In this document: one piece after another, positions 7,128 to 48,800 of the stretch
Layout: each line of letters starts with the position of its first letter
How positions within the stretch are numbered: the first letter of the stretch is position 1
The notes under the pieces: model-generated
Databases searched by the model: none
What the model saw: only the letters and a program-made list of their open reading frames with translations
What the model was told of the DNA's origin: nothing
Translations under genes and position numbers: made by a program
Origin: Adineta ricciae
Taxonomy: Eukaryota; Rotifera; Eurotatoria; Adinetida; Adinetidae
Assembly (NCBI GenBank): GCA_905250025.1
Contig: CAJNOJ010000035.1
Span: forward strand, 496,001-560,000
Direction of reading: 5' to 3'
DNA length: 64,000 nucleotides

Positions 7128-10100
7128 TTACGGGTAATTCGCGGCGAGTTGAACAGTAGGGCCCATTTCGGATGGAGGATAGAGATTCGGTCGAGCTTTG
7201 AATCGCTTTGTTGCTATATCGATTTCGTACGTGGCACCACGAATGTAATCAGGAGTGATTTTCTCCGACCGAGGAGCATGAACAAATCCCAAACAGATCT
7301 AAACAGCACATTGAAGAATTTTCAAGAACGAAATAGGTTCATAGGACATACTTGTTTGCCGATTGTAAACCCATATGCTGCCGATGTAACAAATCCGCAG
7401 AATTCACCGTTGCGATAGATTGGTTCTTCACTCCATGGCCTAAAATGACGAGGATTTTGCTAAGAAAAATATCGAAGGAAGATTAAGTTAGTACCATGGA
7501 TCTGAATTAAGATTATGACCTTCAAGTTGAAATTGAACGAAGCGTTTGTGAATGCCTTCAGCTCGTTGTTTAAGTAGGGCTTCTTTACCAATGAAATTTT
7601 TCTAAACAAACGAATCACATATTCCAAATTAGTACGGAGAAATTTGTATATTTAGTTACATCGAACGAAACATGGTATTCTCGGTTTAAATGGAGCGGTG
7701 TTGTTTTCTTGTCGATATCATGCCCCCATGATGGATACATTCGTTCGATTCGAAGAGTGCGTTGTGCGAAATAACTAGATTCTTAGAATATAACTCGATG
7801 TTGATTCATAATCGACAATCTTACCCAGCATTTATCATTCCATAGTCTTTACCCTGCTCCATTAACATGTCGTACACGCATAATGCATACTAAAAAATCA
7901 ACAATAGATAATTTTGAGGGTCAAATCAAACCTTACCTCAGATGGGATATATAACATGAAACCATCTTCGCCTGTATGTGTTAGTCGCATAGCATAGATA
8001 TGACTGACAAAACCAACATCGATCTCCTAGAATGAAATGTACAGTAACAATCTTTGACGATCAAATGTGGTTCATTTACTTGACAAGTCATTCGTCCAAA
8101 ATCACTGAAATTCTCATCACTTAGTTCACTTAGTAAAAATTTGGCTTTCGGACCGATTACGTTCAAAGCTGTGTAGAGTGAGGTAACATCCGAAAGAAAT
8201 ATTGATCCATTCCGAGGAACGTGTGCTTTCAGCCACTTCATATTCCGAGTTGATTGCGATGTTGGACTTACCAAAAGAAAACTAAGAGAAAAACAACACT
8301 TTCAACGAGATCAATCTGCTAATTTACTGATTATCATCGAGACGTATAACTGAACAATCATTTTCGTAACCACCTTGCTCATTCAACATTCCTGTATGTA
8401 CAATGGTACCGATTGGTTTATCGATATTATCGGCGCACAGTACTTGAAGAAAATCGACCACACTTCGATCAGCTGATTTGAGTTCGTATTTTGTAAATGA
8501 CGTCATATCGATAACAGCTACACCTCGTCGACAAGCATTATACTCTTTAATGACCGTGTTAAACCATCGAGGTTTACCAAAAGAACCTTGTTTGCTGAGA
8601 TCGACGAAGTCGACTGGAAAAGAAAACAAAGAAACGCACGTTTAAGTTAAATTGAAAAAACACTGATTTGATGGAATTTGTACGTACTTTTTCCCAGTTC
8701 ATCAGGTTTGAAGAACAACGGCCGCTCATAGCCGAGCACTTCGCCGTAAGCAGCACCTGCCGCTTGCAATTTCGGATGCAATGCTGAAACACGCAGTTTT
8801 CGTCCTGTTCGATACAATGACATACCATAAGTTGGATATTTCAATGAATATTGCTTTCCTATAAGTAAATTATGACCTATACAGAAATGTATAGAGCAAT
8901 TATGAGAACTTTACCTGGTATTTCTCGAAGACGATCCTCAAGAAATCGTTTATTCGTATGTAAACGCATAAACCGTCGTATATCCACTGGCCAAGTGCTT
9001 AAATTTGTATTTCCATGATAGATCAGTTCAGCAATATATTTGCCCACTCCGCCTGCGAGTGCGATTCCATTACCGTTTGCTCCTGATGCAACAAAATAAT
9101 TATCAATCTAAACACCTTCGTTAAAGTGAATAGTCTTCATTTGGCTCTTATTACTTACCTCAGCGGATTCGTTCATAATTAATCGACCGTCGGGTGTATA
9201 ACTCTCCGCACCGGTTATTAGTGTTTCACACTGGCTCTCTTCTAGAATAGGAAATCGTTTGATTGCATTGCTCAATATCCAGTCTAGAAGGAATTGATTT
9301 CTGCATGAAATCATGATCGGTCAACAAATGAACTTACGGAAATCATCCCAATTCTCGGGTAGTAATGAAAAATGAAATGTATCCGGGACGCCATTTGAGA
9401 AAATAGGTTTCGACTGTCTTAGAAAGCCGCCGATTAGAACACTACGGTCGGCTAATGGTTGAATATAGAAACGTTCTTCAGGATTATGTATTGTAGGAAC
9501 ATCATCAGGAAGTTTTCCAATCGGTTTTGTTTTCATACAGATGTATTCTAAATTATATTCATTAGATAGAAACAATGCATTCGATGTGTATTTCAATCGT
9601 ATGATTACCACAAGCTTGAGTAGGAATTCGTACACTTGGTGATGCTTGAAATCCAAGTTCACGTGCCCACTAAATTGTACAATTAGGATTTACTTATGCA
9701 AAAGAGAACAGTAAACTTACTATTCCAGTACAATTAATAAATATATCACATTTTATGTTGCCTTTGGATGTAATCGCACCTGAGACACGGTCCGACTGAC
9801 TACTACTTTGTTTTTCAGTAAGAATCTCTTCCACCGTGCAATCTTCGATGATCTTAACTCCTAGAGAAGAAAACTATGTAAAAGAAAAATTTGTTTAACA
9901 CTTGCTTTACCTTTGACTATTGCCAATTGAGCAAGTGTTAAAGTTAACGAAACAGGATCAACCATAAAATCGTTGGGCATCCACAGGCCACCCTTTATTT
10001 AGATTTCATATGTGATTTAGAACGAGTTACATTGATTTTTACTATACCCAAATTTCATGTGAATTGATAATGGGCACTTTAGCTTGTAGCTTTTCATGAT

Positions 10101-10717
10101 TCAATATCTCGCAATTTAATCCCAATGCATTCGTAACACTATATTGTCGTTTTAATGTATGAAGACGATCAGCTGTTTGCGCAACCCATAAACTTCCCTT
10201 TTCGTCGAAACCTATGTACAGTACACATAGTACAACGATTGCAAGCAAATAAATATACCTATAGTATGCCCCTCTCTATGCAACTGTTCATATAGTTCTC
10301 TTGAGCATTTTGTGAAATGTGTTTCCACTACTGTTTTCTGTAAATGCGTCACTTGACCAGAACTCTGCCATGTTGAACCGGATGCTAATCTGTATTTCAA
10401 AAGAGAATTTCAGTCGACTGTTTCCTTTCTCCAATGGTGTTTTACTTTGCTTTTTCAACGAGCACAATATCTTTCACGCCGATGTGACTGAGATGATATG
10501 CAACTGATTGGCCGATGATACCGCCACCGGCGATGAGTATATTACATGAAGATGGAGGTTGTTCAGTTAATATTAAATGCGGAGTCGGATGAACATGATG
10601 AGGAACTGTCGGAGATTCATGTGAAACTAAACGATGTGGAATGAAGCTCAAACATGAAAGAAAAGTTCTGTTTTTCAAACAAATATTGCGGCAAGTAGAT
10701 AGCTTATGCTGCAGCAT
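7128..10717 (-). CDS. PDPR: pyruvate dehydrogenase phosphatase regulatory subunit (PDPR-like)
   Basis: About 15 short exons. The N-terminus is a mitochondrial-type leader followed by the FAD-binding Rossmann motif ILIAGGGIIGQSVAYHLS, with DIVLVEKAK ending the second strand. Later exons encode the DAO-type oxidoreductase fold (e.g. FYIQPLADRSVLIGGFLRQS) and the GcvT-like C-terminal half. In that half VIDMTSFTKYEL, GTIVHTGMLNEQGGYENDCS and LYTALNVIGPKAKFLLSELS match PDPR more closely than DMGDH or SARDH. The last exon ends LGFVHAPR...YEIDIATKRFKA, stop 7130-7128. Start chosen at the first in-frame ATG (10717), 33-34 nt after an acceptor-like TTTAG. The product regulates mitochondrial PDH phosphatase. 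Confidence 0.88.
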
Positions 10718-10913
10718 GTAAGCCTGCAAGCATCTGAAAATGCAACTATCTAAATACAAAAAGAAAGTATTTGTATTATTAATTGATAAAAACTAATTGT
10801 TCTTATGGATACAGGAAGGAACGAGAGAAAAAGAAAAGGACAAAATAAAACGGTAGAGGACTAGGATATATTCATGATTTTGAGTCTATTGGATGTTAAG
10901 ATAAAGAGGAAAT

Positions 10914-11246
10914 TTAATGATCAGCTTTTTTGCCCGATTGTTTTTTGTCCGCTTTGGCTTTTTTCGGTTTTGATGATGTACGATTTGAACCATTGTATTT
11001 TTGTAAATTGGACATGATGTAGATTGGATAAATCATTGGTACAGCCAGAAACAAACCTAATGCGATTAATTTCTCCTGAAAGAATAAAACAGAGAGTATA
11101 GAGAACAAAGAAGAAGATAATTCGAAGTTTACTGAATTTGTCACTTTATTAAGTGGTGGACCAGCAATTAAAAGTGCGCTTCCGTTACGACGTGGCATCA
11201 TCATTAGAGCTTGACGTCGAACGACTTGAGTCAAAAGACCAGACAT
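10914..11246 (-). CDS. small mitochondrial single-span protein, COX VIIc/VIII-like
   Basis: Two exons around an in-frame, stop-free 69-bp intron (11144-11076). Spliced length is 87 aa. The N-terminus is basic and Met-rich (VVRRQALMMMPRR), then AGPPLNK, one transmembrane helix (LIALGLFLAVPMIYPIYIM), SNLQKY, and a strongly basic tail (KPKKAKADKK). The presequence, G-P-P element and single helix ending in a polar aromatic segment resemble small cytochrome c oxidase subunits (VIIc or VIII). The lysine tail is not typical of either. It lies 197 bp upstream of PDPR on the same strand. Confidence 0.6.
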   Translation of the reverse strand: MSGLLTQVVRRQALMMMPRRNGSALLIAGPPLNKVTNSVNFELSSSLFSILSVLFFQEKLIALGLFLAVPMIYPIYIMSNLQKYNGSNRTSSKPKKAKADKKQSGKKADH

Positions 11247-11719
11247 TGTGTTGAAAATTTGTTCAAAGTGCAATTATCTGAAATCACTCGAGTTACTGTT
11301 GCAAACAAAATAACGTCTAAGAATTTCCTGGAATCTATGCTAGAAGAGAATGATCCCAACCTTGAGGTTGAGAAAATCATCATAATTAGTTCTATTTTAT
11401 ATTTAGAATGCGTCCTTTTATCGAACACATCGCCTGCATTCGATATAAAACATCACTCGTGCGATGGATTTTATCAGTGTTCTCAAAATCTCTATACAAT
11501 GGTTATTTATAGTCTTGTTGATGCTGCCAAAACCGAAGAATGCTTATGATTGTAAACAATACTTTATGGTTGGTGATTGGTTAGAATTTTTTCTTGATAT
11601 TCAGCTCAAATTATAACTTTAGTTTTTGAAAACCAGTTAAATATGTAAACCGAAATACATTTTTATCGAAACGACTGGCGCCATCTTCTGATTGGAAATT
11701 GCAATTCTAACCAATCGCA
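11247..11719. promoter_or_regulatory. divergent promoter region
   Basis: A 473-bp spacer between the COX-like gene (-) and the RNF25-like gene (+). Overlapping ORFs on both strands at 11211-11549 extend out of the COX-like exon and show no domain. It is likely a shared regulatory region. Confidence 0.35.
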
Positions 11720-12592
11720 ATGTCGCGAACGACGTGTGTGTGTGTGCATGTAGGACAGATACACACATCGTATAACATTTACGACACAGTAAATCTTGCG
11801 CAAGTAGATTTCCTTTCTAAGGGTTGGATGGATGAAGAACTAAGTGTGTTAAAATCCATTTACTTGGACGATCTAGAAATCGATTCAGGTGACCCAACCA
11901 CGGTCACGATTACAATCTTTTCCAACGGTGATGAAAACGATCTTGATCAAGATAAACGACTTCTACGTATAACATTCGTTGCTGAACTCCCGTCAACATA
12001 TCCTGACACTGATTCGCCTAAAATAACACTTTGTCGCTCGCGTGGTTTGACCGATGAACAACTAGATGAATTGAATTCATCCATTGCAACTTGCCTTCAG
12101 TCGAATCTTGGCTCATGCGTACTCTACGAATGTATTGAATTAATTCGCTCAAAATTATCTTCATATGATCTTCCATTTGAATCATGCGCCATATGTTTAA
12201 CTCTGATGACAGATCGGAATGAAATCATTAAAACGAACTGCCATCATTTTTATCATAAAACTTGTCTTAAACCTTATGTTGATATGCGGAAGACAGAATT
12301 GGAAGAAAAGTATCGTGAATTGAAGAAAAATGGTTTCTACATTGAACGAGATTTCCGTCAAGATATCGAAGATCCTGTATGTCGACAAATTCTTTCCAGT
12401 CACGTTATCGAACAGCTACCAGATACTTCGACTATCGAAACAGTGTCAAATGAAGAACATCAAGAACTAATTCATCAACTTTCACCACATGTTCGACAAT
12501 GGCAAGAACGTACACAAGCACTTTTCCAACAACAAAAAGAGAAAGGAGGCATCATCGATCTTGATAAGAACCAAGAAATGATATTCACTTGA
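11720..12592 (+). CDS. RNF25: RWD-RING E3 ubiquitin ligase, RNF25-like
   Basis: The RWD domain spans roughly residues 35-135 (WMDEELSVLKSIYLDDLEID; ELPSTYPDTDSPKI; GLTDEQLDEL). The RING follows (CAICLTLMTD...TNCHHFYHKTC), and the C-terminus EKGGIIDLDKNQEMIF matches the conserved end of RNF25/AO7. In the RING, the usual C-P-x-C pair reads DPVC, so the seventh zinc ligand is Asp. The first ~34 residues look non-coding, with a GT repeat and a TTTCTAAG acceptor just before GWMDEE, so an early intron with a very short first exon is likely. Role: E2-dependent ubiquitin transfer. Confidence 0.88.
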   Translation: MSRTTCVCVHVGQIHTSYNIYDTVNLAQVDFLSKGWMDEELSVLKSIYLDDLEIDSGDPTTVTITIFSNGDENDLDQDKRLLRITFVAELPSTYPDTDSPKITLCRSRGLTDEQLDELNSSIATCLQSNLGSCVLYECIELIRSKLSSYDLPFESCAICLTLMTDRNEIIKTNCHHFYHKTCLKPYVDMRKTELEEKYRELKKNGFYIERDFRQDIEDPVCRQILSSHVIEQLPDTSTIETVSNEEHQELIHQLSPHVRQWQERTQALFQQQKEKGGIIDLDKNQEMIFT

Positions 12593-12793
12593 AATAATTT
12601 TCTATTTTTTTATGTTATTTATTTGTTTTTCTTCAATATTTTTCGCATTGAAGTCGATCTATATATACATTAAAAAGAAAAAGGTTAAATATGTTCTGTT
12701 TTTTTTTCCTGTTGAACATCAATGCGGCGATCAAGAAACATTTCGCTTTTATTTTCTTTATTAATTCTTTGTGAGAACACCACATTCAAATGG

Positions 12794-14298
12794 TTAATTT
12801 AAAATGTCCCATAGACTACTCAAAGTATATCCCTGTGGTAGTTTTTCTATAGCCAAGCCAAGTTCTTCCGAATAGACAGGCTCACGATCACGTTTACCCG
12901 TATCCGTCAAATAGGTCTGCATAAAAGAAGTCAATAAATATAGAAATGGAAAGTATTAATGACTACTTACAGCGTATGAATCTGTATGTTCTCGACTTTG
13001 TAAGATTTCGATATCATCAACTAGACTTTCCAGACGCGTGGCTGGCTGATCTGGTTGTTGTTCTTCGATTGAATACTCAACACCAAATTCCGGATTGGCG
13101 AAATAGCTAAGAAAAAAGAAATATATCGATGATGGTCAGCAGAATTCTCCTTCTTCAATCTACCTTTTGTGAAGGGTAAGAATTTCTTTGTGGACTTCTC
13201 GAAGTTTTTCCTCAGGTGCTATTTGAAAACCGAGCAAGTAGTTTCCACTCTGATAATATCGAAAAATCATCGTACTTCCTGTAATAGATTACAATGCTCT
13301 TACGTATGGCGTTGTTTCAACAACGAGTGCAACACCGAATTTCGAATCGCGAATTTTGATACTTTTAGTTTGATAATACGGTACACTAACATTAAAGTTT
13401 TCATTCAGTTCTGCATGCCATATGAGACGAATGTCCGTGATATGAAAGATACCCAGATTACCCTTGAGAAATAGAATAAACCATCATGATTTTTCTTACT
13501 TTTCGAAAAGAAATGCTAGAATTATACTTGATCAGAAGATAGGTTCCATACTCCATTGTATCGACTATGCAGACGTTCTTTTGGTAGAATACGTAGTTGA
13601 CCTTTGTTAAGTAATGACGATCGAAGGCGAATTTCACGATAGAGACGACTTGAATCATAAGCTTTATGAACAGCGACGATTGAATTGAGCATTGCACTTG
13701 AACCAGTAATCAAATTTGTAAAAATGAATTCATAACGTGATGAACCTGATTTCGTTAAGAGATAGACTGATTCTGTGCTTCCACGAAGTTTCTTCGAAGA
13801 GAAAAACATGAGAAGTGAGAAAGTTGTCTGAAACTATTCATACCGATTTGGCATTTCGAGCGGTGATAGTAACGAGTGCATGTAAACCAATAGCTTATAA
13901 AGAATTCTTAAACTAGAATCAAGTATTTCATTCAGAATAGTAAGCTTACAAAGATTGGTACGCGTAGAGGAATGACTATGCCAAATGAGACGAATATTAG
14001 TTATGATAAGTTTTCCTAGACGATAAAAAAGCCGCGATTTTCTAGTATTTGCTAAATGTATTTCCTATAGTCATGAAATTTACCCTTATCGCCATTGTTT
14101 CCTTTGGTATCCTCGACTGAACTAAGTGTGTCGATAATAAATTCACCAGATCGGCACTTGATGTCACTGAAAATAAATCAACATAGATGTATGCATTGCA
14201 AATACGTACAAGCAATGCAGTTACTTTGGTGGCACATCGAAGCGAATCTCTCGATCGTACCACACAGCCATGTTTGCTTCTTGGGTTGCAGATGCCAT
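12794..14298 (-). CDS. BBS5: Bardet-Biedl syndrome 5 protein
   Basis: Multi-exon. The first exon starts [20 protein letters not shown] (ATG 14298) and splices at GTAACTGC into [20 protein letters not shown]. The middle exon contains [40 protein letters not shown] and [11 protein letters not shown], diagnostic of BBS5. The last exon ends [19 protein letters not shown], stop 12796-12794. The family has two PH-like domains that bind phosphoinositides within the BBSome coat, so the protein acts at cilia. It is convergent with RNF25 (200 bp between stops) and divergent from the gene at 14457. Confidence 0.95.
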
Positions 14299-14456
14299 GA
14301 CGTCTTTTGGAACTTCTGAACTTTCGATCGTATGTTTTACTCTGATGAAATGCGATGATATTCTGACTTGTCAATCAGCCATGATGTTCAAGAAATTCAG
14401 AGAGGTTTCTTCTCTCCCATGATACTCTGTTCTTTTTCTTCTTATTCACATTACAG

Positions 14457-14967
14457 ATGTCACTTTGTTCTTGTTCGTCATGTTTGACAATTCCATCGTT
14501 GTCATCGTCGTCGTCGTCCAAATGGAGTGAATCTAGCGATTCTTATCGGTTAACGTCGTCATCTTCGATCACAACTGTTTCGACTTTGTCGAATAATTTT
14601 CCTCAGGTGAACTTTTTGAATTCGATACTATTTTGTCCACTCATTCAGAGATAATCTTTTAGGAAGAAAATTGTACAAATGAGGATAATGACGATAATAA
14701 CGGCCAACAATGGGTGTTTGCAACAGCAAAAACAGCTCAAAATTGTCATATTGAAAAGAATGTAGGTCTTTCTGAACAAATACAACTCGTATTTCACGAG
14801 AACTCTTGCTTTAGGTATCTCTACAAGATCAACCAGATAAGAAAAACAGCTGTATACTCAAAGCAATTATGACACAAAAGCAAATTGTTATTTCTGATTC
14901 ATCTACAACTCGATCGACAATCATTCCAAATAAACATCTCTCCATGAAAGTAGTATTCCATGTTTAA
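14457..14967 (+). CDS. uncharacterised Ser-rich small protein, 3 exons
   Basis: Exons 14457-14606, 14663-14761 and 14815-14967 join in phase 0 to give 133 aa. Introns are 56 and 53 bp. The N-terminus is Cys/Ser-rich (MSLCSCSSCLTIPSLSSSSS), the middle is Asn/Asp-rich with GQQWVFATAKTAQN, and the rest is polar. An acceptor-like TTACAG lies immediately before the ATG, so a leader exon or trans-spliced leader is likely. No family is recognised. The gene is divergent from BBS5 across only 158 bp. Confidence 0.55.
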
Positions 14968-15256
14968 TCATTTAAATTTTCGCTTTTTAAATCAAGATGT
15001 AGATTTTGTTTTCGTATGTGAACTTTAATAAATCGTGTAATCTCTTTTCTCTCTTACTGATGAACATATTCTATATAATATCTTTTTCTGAAGATGAATT
15101 GAGTTGCGAAGCTTCTGAAATACCTGATGACTTCAGATGTGTCAGAATCCAGTGCAAAACAGGTTGACACAGAAGAAGAGTAAGATATGCATGTTATCCT
15201 GTTATCAGCGTGTTTTTTTAAATAAATATACGACAGTCGACAGCACGGCGCTGACA

Positions 15257-17103
15257 ATGGCGATCTTTCGATGTTTTTACATCAGTATCTGTCTGCTTTT
15301 TACTTTCAATCAGTGGCATTCGCTTCCAATTGTTCCATCGAATATACAAACTAACCCATTGACACCGTGTGAATTGTGTAACATTCTACTACCTATTGCC
15401 AAAGGTCTCATTGCAATTAATGAATCATCACTGATCGAAAAACTGGGTATAACATTATGTCAATATTTACATCTTGCCGATGATGCAGTCTGTGCTGGTA
15501 TGATTGATGAATACAATCCTGTGCTGATCGAAGTACTTCGCCATAGTCCGTTGGCGACACATGAGATTTGTGGCGTTGCTTTTGGATGTATGCGGCAAGC
15601 AGATATTCCTGCTCTTCAATGGAATGTCACTTTTCCTCCATCGACTGTGCAAATCTCTTCCCCGGACATGCGGTCACATGCTCAAGCAACCATTTCGATT
15701 CTTCATCTGGCTGATCTGCATATTGATACAAAATATACACCTGGTTCAAATGCGAATTGTGGTCGACCGCTCTGTTGTCGCGATGGCACACCAAAAGCAG
15801 GTGAAATTGGCGCCCAGTTTTGGGGTGACTATCGCACATGTGATCTGCCGGCATGGACAGCAGAAAACATGTTAAAGTATATTGGTCAAGTAGAAGAGCG
15901 TATTGATTTCATTTATTTCACTGGCGATATTGCACCACATGACGTTTGGCAACAAACGCAAGCGAAAGATCTCGAAGAAATATCTTTTACTACTCGTCTA
16001 TTGAAACAAACATTCCCGAACAAGAAAATCTATCCGTGTGTAGGAAATCATGAAGCGGCACCACCGGATCTGTTCTCAACTATCGATATGTCTTGGCTGT
16101 ATACAAATTTAGTTAATCAATGGATCGGTCAATTTGGCTTAGATGAACGTACACGTGATACAATACTCAAAGGAGGTTATTATACTACAATGATTGCAGC
16201 AAATCTTCGGTTGATATCTTTGAATATGAATTATTGTACAGAGAATAATTATTGGCTTTTTATCAATTCAACAGATCCTCTCGGACAGTTGAAATGGGTA
16301 TGTCACCTTCGTTGTCGAATCTTCTATAGTAATGAAAACGTTCTCATGGATCTTGTAGATGATTCAATGGCTGCAGTATGCTGAAGATCATCAAGAAAAA
16401 GTTCATATTATCGGACATCATCCGCCACGAATGTGTATGGTATCATTCAGTTGGGCATACTACAGTATTGTTAATCGATATCAAAACACAATAACTGGCC
16501 AATTCTTCGCTCATACTCACAACGATGAATTCATGCTCTTCTATGATGAAAAAGATTCTAAGCGACCAGTAAGTTCAGTTCGAACGGTCAAATTTCAAGA
16601 ATAGCTTATATTTTCTTCGAAGATTTCTGTTGCTTATATTTCACCGTCATTCACAACCTATCCCAATCTTAACCCAGGGTATCGAGTGTATACAGTCGAT
16701 GTAAGTGTCACATTAGCTCTAGATACAAAAAACCATCATTCAACGCATTTCTTAGGCTACTAATACAACGTATGTATTAGATCACCGTACTGTGATTCTT
16801 AATCTGACAGCTACAAATCTTTACAATACTACGAAATTTACAACGGAATACTCAGCCAAATCAGCGTATGGAATGAAAGATCTTTCGCCTCAAGAATGGA
16901 ATCAATTGATCATACGTGTGGAGAATGACATTGAAGGTGAAACTATGGATTTAGTTTATCAGTTCTTTATGAAATCATCCACGGCAAGCAGTCCCTGCGA
17001 TCGAACATGCCGAATGAACTTAGTTAATTGTAATTTCAAAACGGCTCGAGCACAAGATACGACCTTTTGTACAAATAATATTTCGATATATTCTCCTACT
17101 TGA
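15257..17103 (+). CDS. SMPD1: acid sphingomyelinase-like phosphodiesterase
   Basis: Signal peptide ([17 protein letters not shown]), then a saposin-B domain ([20 protein letters not shown]...EICGVAFGC), then the calcineurin-type metallophosphatase: D-x-H in [20 protein letters not shown] in [14 protein letters not shown] in IIGHHPPRM and H-x-H in [10 protein letters not shown]. These supply the expected two-zinc ligands. Short introns follow the codons for LKWV and SKRP and again after YTVD. The Cys-containing C-terminus ends at 17101-17103. Architecture (SapB + metallophosphatase) identifies lysosomal/secreted acid sphingomyelinase rather than the SapB-lacking SMPDL3. It is convergent with the next gene (stops 83 bp apart). 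Confidence 0.93.
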
Positions 17104-17186: not shown

Positions 17187-20100
17187 CTATTTCGTTCCAT
17201 TATGCACTTCGTCTTCTACCCAAGTTTTGATCCATTCATACATACTTCTCAGTTCATCCTTATCGCAACGAAAAGAAGTCAATCAATGCAAATCTATCGA
17301 TTTATACTTACTTCTGTTCGAAATGTAGGACAAGCAAATGCAATTTTCCTTGCTTGATGAGATATATCAGCAGTATTATCAATACTCATTTCTTCCATTA
17401 AATTTGCTAATAAACATGCAATAGCACCATCACGTACATCACTAGAAATCAAGTTCACATCTATAGATTGACTCAAATCTTTCAATCACATACTCAACAC
17501 GTATGAGAACAGGTAGATCATTGTCCATATCCAGATTAACTAAAAGCTGAGCTAACCGGTGTAGTGGAATACTTCGAATTGAAGTAATTGGTTGATAAAA
17601 GAAAGTTGTCGACTATGCAGATGATGAATCCATATTTTACACAGACAGCTCGAAATTTCAGCTTACTTGTTCATTATAATACCGACGAAAATCAGTCGAC
17701 ACAAAATCACTATCCAATGATAATCGTTGTTGTTCAATGAAACCCGCATCCTTTCATTCCAAATGAATATGCTAGCGCAAATGTTCAAAATGAACTTACG
17801 ACATGACTGCTATGTTGAAATAGAAAACAGTGTCGAATTTCACATTGTAATATGATTTTTATGAGACTTTGACGATCTTGAACAATGGTTAAAACAAAGA
17901 CTCTCGAGTGTAAATAGCTCTATTACAATTGCAATAACTTCAGAAACCAAAATTTACAATGAAGGACAAACTTACATCGATAAAATACACCGGACAACGA
18001 TTGATGACTATCGATCGGCAAGATTCATTTATATTCAATGGAATGATTGCTTCTAGTTCTTTCAAACTATTCGTAGTAAAGGACTACAAACAATCTTGAA
18101 CATGTTTAACAAAAACATATCAGCCAAGAAGACTTACTTGCAACATTTCGACAAATGAATTTTGATAATATGAACCAACTCTAGTTTGAAGCAGTCGACT
18201 AATCTCTTCATTTAATCCTTGAAATGTTACCACATCTGGAGAGTAAGTCCAAGCAGATAAATGAAGTATTGCCATGTATACTATTTTCAGCACTTCCTAA
18301 ATATTTACGTATATGAAAATCTAAATGTAATTGTAACCCATCTATCCTACTGAAGTCATAGTGCATGTCGGCAACTGTTTATCCAGTTGGGTAATCGTAT
18401 TCGGTACATTAATAAAGCCATATCTGTGTAGCAAACGTCGGTTAATATCAATCGCCATATACGCTATCGCAGGCGTGTCGATTCCGCTAAGGAAGAAGGT
18501 AGTTTTATAGATCGAGTAAAAGAAGATTGCATTACCGACTATGAATAGCGATTATATTTGGACTCCCGTCATGAAGTCTTTCTTTTTTCTCTTTCTCGTT
18601 CACTTGATACTGTAAACGCAAGAGAGAAACAGGATCTAATCCAAAAGTAGCTTCTGACCAGTTTTTCACTTGAAATAGTTCAATATCACGAGTTTCTGTT
18701 GCACCAATCTAATCAGATTCAACGCATAGTTTTCATCAATTAATTCAATGGTCCTACCTTTTGTAATTGAAATTGAATAGTCTCAGTATCCAAGCGCTGC
18801 AATCGTTGAACTAGGTTAATCTGATACTTTCCCTCAATAGTTAGTGACGACCTAGTTTCATCGGGCCAATATCTTATAAGAGCATCCTATTCCACATAAA
18901 CATGTTTCAATCCGTTAAAGATTACAGACAGTTTCCATACCTTATCCTTGATTTTGTAGAGCATTATAATCGATGATATATGGTAATTCCATATAGTATT
19001 CCAAAAGATTGAAAGATTTGATTGTTGCACAACTAAACAGAAATAATAGGACGTTTTTCTTTCGCTCGAAGAATCCTACCGTCAATTAACAAATAGTGAG
19101 CATCCATTTGATTATTTTCAACAGTATTAATTTCAATCGTGTAAGTTTGAAGATGATGAAATGCACTAATTGTTGGTACGATTGATTGTTGATCTGAACG
19201 AATGGGCAACTAGATTATAGTAAAAACAATGTCGTCATTTCTACCTAAAGATACTGGAGTTGCCTGACGATATGCTGTGACTTGCTGATCAATACCACGA
19301 TAGTTATTTGCTGCTAAATGATAGACATGCTCTCGAATTTTCTGTGCTGGTACAATCAGTGTATTGCTCAACAAAGTTGGACGTATCTTTTTATAGATCT
19401 GCTCCTGCTTTTCATAATGATCGGCTTCGTACAATTCGCTCCAATTGACTCTAATATTATCATCAATAAACAAATAATTATTGAATGTAAAAGAAAGATT
19501 AGTTACGGTGGTCTTAAAGGGCCGCACCATGATTCCATTAGATTTTGGCATCGTGAGCCATGCGGAAGTTCATTTCTTTCCAAATGTTTTCGATACCGCA
19601 TCTAAGAACACAAGAACGTGACTTGATACTCGAAGTATATATCGGAGAACTCACATCATCTCTCGTTGTTATTCCATTCATTGCTAAACCACAATGGTAG
19701 CACCAGAACGAAGCAAGTGTAAACATCAGGAAAAAGGCAACCACAGCAATGAAAAAACTCGGAATATTGTACGCAACGTAAACTCCTGGGTTATCTTTAT
19801 ACAAATCCCATCGAAGATACGCTGCTACACCACTATCAATTAATCCGAACAAACACAAAATTGAACAGGATAGAACGAAATTACAAAAATAACGGTAATT
19901 CAGTAAACCAACGCAATTATTAACTAAATGACAGAACTGAACCATCACTTGCTGATTAATATGGAAATCTTACTCCAAGGACAATGATGATCAAAGTTTT
20001 GCACGCAAACATTGCAAACTGAACAATGGGAAACACGAGGCAATCGATAAGTTCGACATGTATAACAATAAGAAGATGAATAGGGAAAATTCCGCACAAG

Positions 20101-20730
20101 AACAGTTGTTGGCGGTGGTACCGATGGAAAGTACTTCCCATTTCTAAGAACAGAAAATTTGATTATAAATGTCATTAAAAATTCAATAAACAATTTACAA
20201 ATCAGTTTGAATATTATGCTCTTTTTCTATGCGAAGGACTTCATCCGCATCTGGTCGTGGTATTACACCAGGATCATGTAAGGCAGCGAACAAATAATTT
20301 ACTACGGTGTAAAAAAGTGCCAGAGAAAGTAGAATTGGAAAGTAATAATGACGATTTCTAATCAGTATTGGGAAGCTAATATGTAAAAAAAAGAGCACAA
20401 ACATTTTCTCTTGCTTTATCGAAGAAAATATCCTCACTCCCAACCAATGTGTAGTCCAGCTAGAACTACAATCAGACTGAGAACACCGGCAACTACACCC
20501 CAGGATCTGTACGTCCAACAGGTACAACAACATGAAATTGCTTTACTCGGATAGATCTGAATTTTGATGTGAAACGTTGTTTTCTTCGAAATCAAGCGAC
20601 TGAAACTTACTTTTCCTCGACGCATGCTCAAAATGTTAGTCTTTGAAATTAATCTGCAATCACCAATCAATGTATATACGCTGTACTTCCTTGCTGTCAA
20701 CAAACACCATTGTGTTGGCAGGCGCTGTAA
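17187..20730 (-). CDS. DHHC palmitoyltransferase fused to tandem pseudo-PTP domains
   Basis: The first half is a DHHC9/14/18-type palmitoyltransferase: [19 protein letters not shown], two helices ([40 protein letters not shown]), [10 protein letters not shown], Cys-rich [19 protein letters not shown] with FDHHCPW intact, two more helices, then [11 protein letters not shown] 56-bp intron (19506-19451) joins CC|A in frame to [15 protein letters not shown], opening a PTP-like domain ([26 protein letters not shown]). Its active-site loop reads [17 protein letters not shown], with Cys and Arg lost. A second PTP-like domain follows ([16 protein letters not shown] ... [19 protein letters not shown] ... 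[11 protein letters not shown]), also lacking the Cys. Stop 17189-17187. The first exon/initiator is unresolved: an acceptor-like site lies near 20727. Confidence 0.72.
19451..19506 (-). other. 56-bp intron at the DHHC/pseudo-PTP junction
   Basis: The donor GTAACT and acceptor ATATTAG flank an AT-rich 56-bp insert of the size typical of this locus. If retained, the donor itself creates an in-frame TAA straight after CGPLRPP, giving a DHHC-only protein. If removed, frame continues into the PTP-like half. A separate ATG (19551) in another frame could start the PTP half by reading through this intron. Confidence 0.65.
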
Positions 20731-45821: not shown

Positions 45822-48800
45822 TTAATTGCTGTTGATTTCAATCAAGCCGTGATCATAAGCGTAAAGAATAGCTTCGCACGCGAATTGGTATTGACTCTAA
45901 AAATGGTAAGTCGACGAGCGTCTTGGAATGAAAAAGAAAATAAAACCTCTTACAGCTGTTTGTATCATTCCTAAACGTTGTTCGCGCGTTTGTCGAACGA
46001 TGTTTAATGGAAAAACAGGTTGATTATTCTCCATAAGACATAGAGCTGTCTCCACCAAGATGAGGACACCTGTTCGACCGATTCCCGCACTAAAGAAACG
46101 TCAAATTCGTAGCAGATGTTTCTGTTAGGAAGAAAGTTTCTTCTACCTGCAATGCACGAGAATTGGTAAATGTTTATTTGCTTTTCGCAATTCACGTATT
46201 TCTAGGACAAAATCAACGAAAGATGCATAATCGGTAGGAACACCATGATCAGGCCAAATTTCGTTCTGAATTTGATAGATTATTCGTTCTTCATGACTTT
46301 CCTTGTTCGAACAGATCAGTTCACGATACATAAGATTATTCTCATTTCGTTCACGATTACAACGGATTCGAAATAGTCCATAATCACTCGTCTCCAAAAC
46401 ATTCGGCCAGTATTGATGACATTTAACTCGTCCACTTCGAAAGTCAAGAGGCGAACGATTGAAAAACGTCAAACGAAAGAAAGTCTACTTACTTTTCGAA
46501 CAATGTCGTCAGCATGATGATTAATGTACATTGTTGTTCCCAAACCATTCGCCAAAAGGCTTCACAGGTTGTGGGCAATGGTCCTTGAGTAGCAATATAA
46601 CGATTGACAGTATCAGTCGAAATAATTGGCATCTACGTTTTCAACAAACATCTTTCTGACTATAGCAGATGAATCATTCTTACATTGATGTAACTAGCAT
46701 TGATATAGTCATTTTCAAGGCTTGTTTTGAGAATAACACGTGTTTGATCGTAAGGTAGCACATCTTTGTAACGATTGCGGTAAAAGTTTATTTGATTGGT
46801 ACTTATTTCGAATGTAAAGCCATCCTTTCGCCGTTGAAGTGCCTAGAGTGAAGGTATTCTTAAATATTCGAACGTCTATTCCCAAGCTCATCAAACTTAC
46901 CTCGTACTGTTCAACTAAGTGTTCAGATTTCAAATCACTACGTAAGACTTTTACTGATTTTTCTAATGAATTTTGTTCTTCTCGCGGCTTCATCAATAAT
47001 TCTAATTCCGCTGAGGGTCGTTCACGTGAATGCCGAACCATCTCGGTGATCTAGATAACGATTTGACAATTAACACAAAAAACGACACAGTTCATCAGTC
47101 AGTCATTGAATTTACTTGATCATGTGAATGATTTCGAATGTCAATATTATTAATTGCCAATATGATATCACCTTCATGAATCAAAGCTCGACTCGCTGGT
47201 GTATTGTGTGCCACTTTCGAAATAACAGTTGGTGTTTGTTCATTTTCTCCTCCCTGAAAAATAATCTTGGCATATGTTGCAATTTAAGGTAAGTAAGAAA
47301 CCGAATACTTTAATATTAAAACCATATCGACCATCAGCATCTGGCGTTAGTTTGATTTGCGTAGCATCAGTCGTCATACACGACATCGAACAGTTCGTTG
47401 CGGGAAGATTTTGAAGACTAAATAACCATCGAATTGATTAGTAAAGTTCTTGTTTTACAAATGTCCTTTTTCTTCTCAAGGGAAATTAAGGTTGCATGTA
47501 TTCTGTTAATTTATTCTATTGACATTATCACATTGTTAACCATCGAAGGAAAATTTTAACCGGCTGCGAACTATTTTTCTTTCTCATAATGGGCGTGGCA
47601 CAATTTCACCATTCACTCTCTCTCTCTCATACACACACTCGTCTGCGTACGACGACAGTTTCCTGCTTACCTTTCACGAGATTGCGTCGCATTTTTCGGC
47701 TTATATTCATTTGCTTCCAGAATCACACTAGTCGTTAGCGATTGTTTAGAGATTAACCGAGGAGGTTTTGGCGGAGCTATTGACGATGTATTATTCGCAA
47801 GATAAACAAGTTTTGGCGTGGGTTCATCGGAGCTTTCTGTCGAAGGAAGATTCTCGTTGATTGCACCTTTATTTCGTTGACTTGATACTCTAGATTGATA
47901 AGAATTAGATTACCCATTGGAGCTTTTTATGAGCCTACCTTTCGAATACTTTTGGTTTCTTCTCGATTGTTTCCATGAGTGAAGAACTTGATGGCAGGTT
48001 GGAACTCTCGTTCTTTTGACGAAGTTTATTCGAAAATGAAAATAATCTTTTGGGTGATGAGGACGCACCAGCAGCCGTCGCCGTTGTTGTTAAACGGAAG
48101 AATGTATGATGATCGACGCATGATTTCCATAGATATTTACAACAACGATAATTACGTAGTGTGAATACGATTGAATTATCATCTGATAACTCCTGTAAGA
48201 ATGTTGTTTAGAATGAGTGACTTGACGTCATGTAAACATAATTTCATATTGATAAATACTTACCATACTTTTCACAAGTTGAACGTAGAATGTCCGACGC
48301 TTAAACGATATTTTGGTTATTTGGTCCCTGTTATATCAAAAGAGAAGAAAAACAGTTTTCGTCTCTTTGCCATCGTTTATCTGACGATCTCCTACCATAC
48401 AAATGTATTGATTTTTGTCGAATTCTGAAAGACAGATATTCCCATAGCCGATACACCCACATATAACTCCACAGTAGAATTATAATTTCCTCCATTTGTA
48501 TGAGATACCTAATCGTATTCATCGATACATTGGAACTCATTCAATATTCGATTCATTACTTTCACAGATGATTTATGCAACTCAACGCCGTACATATCCA
48601 ACGAACTTGCAATACGAAGATAATTACTTTCAGCATCCGCTGGCAATTGACCCCTACATAAAAAAAGAAATAAATGTTATTCATCGAGGCGTAAATTAGA
48701 TCATTCGCATGTTACTGATGTTGTTTATGATAAAGTTCAACTTCATCTTCGAAATCTTTGTTTTGAAATGGCACAAAACGAAAGTCTTTCAAATAACCAT

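Follow-up and report, generated by a model that had tools for sequence, protein, structure and literature searches.

The bdelloid rotifer Adineta ricciae carries a gene in which a DHHC palmitoyltransferase module is followed by a degenerate receptor-type PTP region. It lies on the minus strand at 20625-17187 of the 64,000-nucleotide stretch of DNA that we have analyzed (the window) and comprises 19 coding exons. As judged from the sequence, a DHHC enzyme and a receptor-PTP-derived region are joined in a single polypeptide, specified by one gene model that deposited proteins match. We read the product, with a probability of roughly 0.55, as a DHHC9-like, active membrane palmitoyltransferase whose pseudo-PTP tail would dock substrates or partners independent of phosphotyrosine. 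The parts of the gene are as follows, in window coordinates.

17187..20625, minus strand: whole fused coding region, from the ATG of MRRGK to the TAG stop, 19 coding exons (splice model, deposited protein P0001, paralog C35:436345-439816).
19507..20625, minus strand: DHHC half with four hydrophobic segments (Pfam DHHC E 3e-32; hydropathy of P0001; best PDB match ZDHHC9 8hf3).
20625-20611, 20556-20438, 20375-20199, 20143-19974, 19923-19655 and 19601-19507, minus strand: exons of the DHHC half (splice model).
19975..19995, minus strand: FDHHCPW catalytic motif (sequence; DHHC kept in 14/14 rows, of 16, that hold the region).
19507..19526, minus strand: CGPLRPP block at the end of the module, its final codon finished by the following exon (of the DHHC9-subfamily CCXXXC, the third Cys is retained).
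19451..19506, minus strand: junction intron, 56 bp, GT-AG, splitting a codon into CC and A (position and length shared by copy 2; C76 also has an intron here).
18138..19450, minus strand: linker, then a juxtamembrane segment resembling that of receptor PTPs, then PTP domain 1 (D1), a pseudophosphatase (Y_phosphatase E 9e-20; hhalign prob 97).
18465..18556, minus strand: D1 P-loop (approximate), IAIHSRGIDTP, interrupted by the intron 18535-18487 and lacking the HCX5R Cys and Arg.
17187..18083, minus strand: C-terminal region, D2-like and strongly degenerate (at E<=10 the PDB gives just two matches; dN/dS 0.20).

The splice model, for which introns had to be GT-AG, the frame free of stops and seven stretches of the PTP half were fixed as anchors, gives a single open protein. 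Read from the ATG at 20625 it is 830 aa in length and agrees with P0001, a deposited A. ricciae protein of 828 aa, at 825 of the 828 positions aligned, the sole difference being the exon-7/8 splice choice. Pfam finds DHHC in the first half of the spliced product (E 3e-32) and Y_phosphatase in the second (E 9e-20), with hand-typed variants of the splice model serving as the queries both here and in the protein searches described below. An initial annotation of this DNA had placed the start of the gene at 20730. The start codon is most likely the ATG at 20625, since P0001 begins MRRGK and the second copy of the gene (see below) has an in-frame stop just upstream; a 5-base first exon of the splice model was dropped in view of the same two observations. 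The junction itself is as that annotation described, with FDHHCPW at 19995-19975, an exon ending in CGPLRPP at 19507 and a 56-bp intron at 19506-19451 (GTAACT...ATTAG) that splits a codon between CC and A, beyond which the PTP-like frame is open to the stop at 17187. A convergent neighbor on the plus strand (window 15131-17103), whose frames resemble an acid sphingomyelinase, ends close to the stop of the fused gene.

A search of the whole assembly with P0001 reveals three copies, all with DHHC and PTP exons in line. These are the window gene (copy 1), a gene at C35:436345-439816 (copy 2), on the same strand of the same contig at a distance of 77 kb, and a C76 copy, an ohnolog, whose translation is P0006. 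Among the best candidates, which were those scored, there is no copy of the PTP half without DHHC exons at E<=1e-3, and beyond the three copies the search gave DHHC exons and a pair of ordinary PTP genes (23% identity). Copies 1 and 2 have equal lengths for 19/19 exons and GT-AG at 18/18 introns, six of which differ in length, and are 94.7% identical over exons and 90.7% over introns. The two may be paralogs or two haplotypes. They form part of a direct duplication on this contig, with a nearly constant offset of ∼76.8-76.9 kb and an identity of 92-94%, that also includes window 9001-15000 (matching C35:428116-434099) in the portions sampled along its extent; the duplication may be segmental and in tandem or may reflect two haplotypes joined in the assembly.

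Selection on the two halves can be gauged from copies 1 and 2. With the NG86 method dN/dS values of 0.10, 0.23 and 0.20 are obtained for the DHHC half, D1 and D2, respectively, and 0.215 for the PTP half as a whole (bootstrap 0.13-0.37); the corresponding YN00 values are 0.10, 0.33, 0.19 and 0.27. These low ratios indicate that the PTP half is under purifying selection, although less tightly so than the DHHC half.

The in-frame fusion claimed in the initial annotation is real, as established by the open splice model, the deposited P0001, fused relatives and the exon structure conserved in copy 2. The preservation of all 19 exon lengths and of 18/18 GT-AG introns in a second copy rules out chance. 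One might still imagine two adjacent genes wrongly joined, the first for a DHHC enzyme that terminates with CGPLRPP and the second for a pseudo-PTP, because translation that enters the junction intron meets an immediate stop in the window copy (CC, then G TAA) and because in copies 1 and 2 the PTP frame extends upstream through the intron for 40 open codons that include ATGs. However, the gap between the halves would be only 56 bp, and the C76 ohnolog lacks the immediate stop (as read by eye) and has an upstream open frame of just 7 codons with no Met. In addition, 14/15 family proteins have both domains, the remaining one, the incomplete P0013, begins within the DHHC module and continues as far as the PTP half, and P0012 is fused in one intron-free frame. 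A separate start for the PTP half in relatives, raised by the initial annotation as evidence that would speak against a fusion, is not what we find, with no Met conserved near the start of this half in the 13/13 rows examined and 14 relatives annotated as fused. A pair of misjoined genes is thus very unlikely, and was rejected in view of the 56-bp gap, the lack of a conserved Met and the fused relatives. No free-standing gene for the PTP half was found in the protein searches or the genome search, the partial model P0027 being uninformative on this point.

Retention of the junction intron in the window copy would end the protein at CGPLRPP. An intron-retained isoform was considered as the main product and rejected; the immediate stop that it would use is found in copies 1 and 2 and is absent from the C76 ohnolog, in which read-through, followed by eye, stops after several codons. 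Such an isoform may exist as a minor form.

The search suggested by the initial annotation, for Pfam DHHC and Y_phosphatase in one protein, was carried out with the spliced product and scored only the 7992 candidates sharing most words with it. It returned 26 matches, 14 of which carry both domains, with a fifteenth family member provided by P0013, a partial model that starts within the DHHC module and passes through CGPTRPSVNW into the PTP half. In the other 11 matches DHHC is not accompanied by PTP; four of these 11 contain ankyrin domains. Fused proteins occur in 8 bdelloid species: A. ricciae, A. vaga, A. steineri, Rotaria sp. Silwood1, Rotaria sp. Silwood2, R. sordida, R. socialis and R. 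magnacalcarata. A profile made from five PTP halves finds 13 proteins, all belonging to the DHHC-PTP family (11 with both domains plus the partial models P0013 and P0027). No fused protein from an identified non-bdelloid emerged from these two protein searches, both of which required shared 5-residue words and had length limits. The annotated models are in part incomplete, with P0002 lacking the CGP exon, P0008 and P0011 missing part of the interval between D1 and D2, P0014 and P0015 ending before D2 and P0010 truncated at its end. P0012, in contrast to the two copies whose gene structure was read (18 and at least 17 introns), is an 824-aa protein whose frame takes up the greater part of a 2,899-bp contig, shows no insertions in the alignment and is thus intron-free; its contig is therefore probably an assembled spliced transcript, so that the fused frame of P0012 was probably read from spliced RNA. 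Database names, where given, are 'Palmitoyltransferase', 'hypothetical' or 'unnamed', with both Pfam domains precomputed, and the DHHC-PTP architecture is already visible in the databases in this way.

The description of the DHHC module in the initial annotation as apparently intact is supported, with a Pfam E of 3e-32, DHHC in 14/14 rows and ZDHHC9 as the closest solved structure (PDB entry 8hf3, E 3e-41). The 14 rows, from a total of 16, are those holding the region of the motif, and the DPG sequence and the zinc-ligand Cys/His residues of the domain are invariant (12/12). Non-rotifer proteins that bear names, among the 120 matches listed of 4690, are ZDHHC9/14/18 or app. A crude hydropathy scan gives four hydrophobic segments in P0001 and other numbers in P0006 and P0005. 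The Glu of TTxE is present in 11/15 rows and replaced in 4/15, with Asp in the window copy, and it is the loss of this Glu, in the window copy and three further rows, that would favor a dead or vestigial DHHC enzyme in a protein serving as a membrane-anchored pseudo-PTP scaffold. We consider a dead enzyme improbable given the retention of DHHC in every one of the 14 rows that hold it, the invariant DPG and zinc ligands, and a dN/dS of 0.10 that makes the DHHC half the more constrained of the two.

One element of the enzyme is altered immediately beside the junction. The C-terminal CCXXXC motif of the DHHC9 subfamily (9/14/18/5/8) is reported to require its CC for stabilization by GCP16, with the third Cys described as the most critical (PMC10076531). 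The block is present in 14 rows (the exon is missing from P0002, and P0027 does not extend to it), with the third Cys kept in 14/14 of them and the first two in 0/14. With these two accessory-motif cysteines missing, activity or dependence on GCP16 may differ from that of the subfamily. The A. ricciae genome contains nine matches to the Erf4/GOLGA7 family at E<=1e-3, the best at 4.5e-15.

The second half was initially described as two consecutive PTP domains. D1 is clearly a PTP domain, its best PDB match being RPTP-alpha (profile E 8e-24), while D2 is only weakly recognizable, so that the description holds in full for the first domain and in a much weaker form for the second. Comparison by hhalign with three receptor PTPs from the A. 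ricciae genome, joined by hand, gives a probability of 97 (E 8e-11) over residues 31-315 of the PTP half. A match that starts at residue 31, in the juxtamembrane segment, and covers D1 suggests that the intracellular part of a receptor PTP may have been taken whole. For D2, Pfam reports no PTP family in 5/5 members and only two unrelated weak families in one member each; the only two PDB matches at E<=10 are both weak, CD45 D2 and RPTP-zeta D2 (E 0.17 and 0.35), and the hhalign match is likewise weak (prob 6.7) and is aligned against D1 columns. A receptor-PTP ectodomain and single TM are absent, and it is the DHHC module that precedes the PTP region instead. A further PTP gene is found in the window at 45954-46788 on the minus strand, with PF00102 exons (best E 1.1e-26) and similar matches on contig C24.

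The tail of the window copy is without catalytic residues, as first annotated. Its D1 P-loop reads HSRGIDTP, in which both the catalytic Cys and the CX5R Arg are gone, and the WPD Asp is missing as well. An active phosphatase was rejected for this copy. Over 16 rows the catalytic position is Ser in 10, Thr in 3 and Cys in 3, leaving 13/16 without Cys, and the WPD loop has Pro in 0 and Asp in 2. The QTxxQ and KNRY motifs of D1 are found in 0/16 rows each and there is no canonical GxGR loop. The suggestion that palmitoylation could be targeted by phosphotyrosine does not extend to the window copy, given its P-loop without Cys and Arg and the loss of KNRY from every row, and the missing Cys and P-loop Arg make canonical phosphotyrosine binding unlikely there. 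Elsewhere in the family the CX5R Arg is kept in 13/16 rows, with Ser or Thr at the Cys position in 10 of those 13, and one row of the 16, P0004 (Rotaria sp. Silwood2; HCCGINTR, WTD), combines Cys, Arg and the WPD-loop Asp; P0004 is possibly the least degenerate D1. These residues are what would be expected if D1 of some members retained phosphotyrosine binding or residual phosphatase activity. Such retention is nevertheless very unlikely in light of the WPD Pro, QTxxQ and KNRY in 0/16 rows, the missing canonical GxGR loop and a window copy with neither Cys nor Arg.

In the reading that we prefer, the protein would be an active membrane palmitoyltransferase, and its pseudo-PTP tail would serve for docking, delivering particular substrates or partners to the active site of the DHHC module in a phosphotyrosine-independent manner. 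The topology expected from the DHHC family places the tail on the cytosolic side. Protein binding by the tail that is independent of phosphotyrosine is plausible. The docking role is proposed by analogy with two precedents: PMC9640194 describes binding of Afadin by the PTPRK D2 pseudophosphatase independently of phosphorylation, and PMC5655499 describes recruitment of substrates by the ankyrin domain of ZDHHC17.

The main rival to docking is that the pseudo-PTP region mainly regulates the enzyme in cis, through autoinhibition, dimerization or stability, rather than recruiting substrates, and we regard this as possible, if clearly the less probable of the two. The juxtamembrane segment and D2 of receptor PTPs are known regulatory parts. 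The loss of two CCXXXC cysteines beside the graft makes cis regulation more attractive, since with the CC absent from 14/14 rows, right next to the fused tail, the tail may have taken over stabilization; against this, the third Cys, reported as the most critical, is kept in the same 14 rows, and the nine Erf4/GOLGA7-family matches persist in the genome. Rather unlikely, in our estimation, is a combined scheme in which the captured receptor-PTP scaffold sets specificity and stability in cis, replaces the role of GCP16/GOLGA7 and recruits former receptor-PTP partners. If true, a protein-palmitoylation step would have taken over a site once used for dephosphorylation.

In a tree of the DHHC half (12 of the 15 fused proteins and 13 others) the fused proteins fall into a single clade, which divides into sub-clades A and B, each containing Adineta and Rotaria (support 98/94 and 96/92), with P0012 outside both. 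The tree of 13 PTP halves shows the same A/B split at 100/100, and there P0012 falls within group B, weakly supported (81/83). Because both versions are present in Adineta and in Rotaria, the fusion is older than the A/B duplication and than the split between the genera, and is old within bdelloids. Bdelloids are ancient tetraploids, and the age of the duplication is consistent with this. The stem of the fused clade is long in the DHHC-half tree (2.29 changes per column). P0037, a 223-aa protein of Brachionus plicatilis ('ZDHHC18-like isoform X2'), joins the fused DHHC clade (97/93) in a placement flagged for long branches. It shows 41% identity across 70% of the DHHC half and has a similar EKENNI...DLSGSYYP segment, and this monogonont protein is probably a relative of the DHHC half. 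The B. plicatilis isoform X1 is absent among the 120 matches listed of 4690 and may exceed the length allowed in the search. As for how the fusion arose, a ZDHHC9/14/18-type gene likely captured the intracellular part of a receptor PTP, such that juxtamembrane segment, D1 and D2 would have been joined after the CGPxxP block, replacing the tail.

The initial annotation knew of no described DHHC-PTP fusion, and among the matches listed in the open-licence PMC literature there is likewise no DHHC enzyme with a pseudophosphatase tail; in the single passage located in a survey of multidomain proteins DHHC is mentioned only with ankyrin repeats (PMC3499355). This old domain fusion, of which bdelloids have kept several copies, provides a natural test of three questions: how DHHC enzymes find their substrates, which partners a pseudophosphatase domain binds after leaving its receptor, and whether the part of an accessory protein can be taken by a fused domain.

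The closest known systems each share some of these features. ZDHHC9/14/18 (with ZDHHC5/8) have in common with the fused protein the DHHC core, DPG, four hydrophobic segments (by the scan of P0001), the terminal CGPxxPS block and, in ZDHHC9, the best PDB match. Their usual C-terminal tail after the CGP block is disordered, whereas the fused protein has a pseudo-PTP region in its place, a CCXXXC motif cut to the last Cys and a long tree stem. Receptor-type PTPs (LAR, RPTP-alpha, RPTP-zeta/gamma, CD45) present the same succession of a juxtamembrane-like segment, D1 and then a D2-like region, but the window copy is without an ectodomain, a single TM or catalytic motifs in either domain, and its D2 is barely recognizable. 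Relative to the ankyrin-DHHC enzymes, ZDHHC17/13 and yeast AKR1, the bdelloid module is PTP-derived, C-terminal (a contrast that follows from the domain positions in ZDHHC17) and attached to another DHHC subfamily. The likeness lies in the attachment of a soluble domain for protein binding to a DHHC enzyme; the domain of the ankyrin enzymes is described as recruiting substrates (PMC5655499). Finally, PTPRU (PMC7320164) and the D2 of PTPRK (PMC9640194) also employ an inactive PTP domain as a protein-binding surface, while in bdelloids the pseudo-PTP region is attached to an S-acyltransferase.
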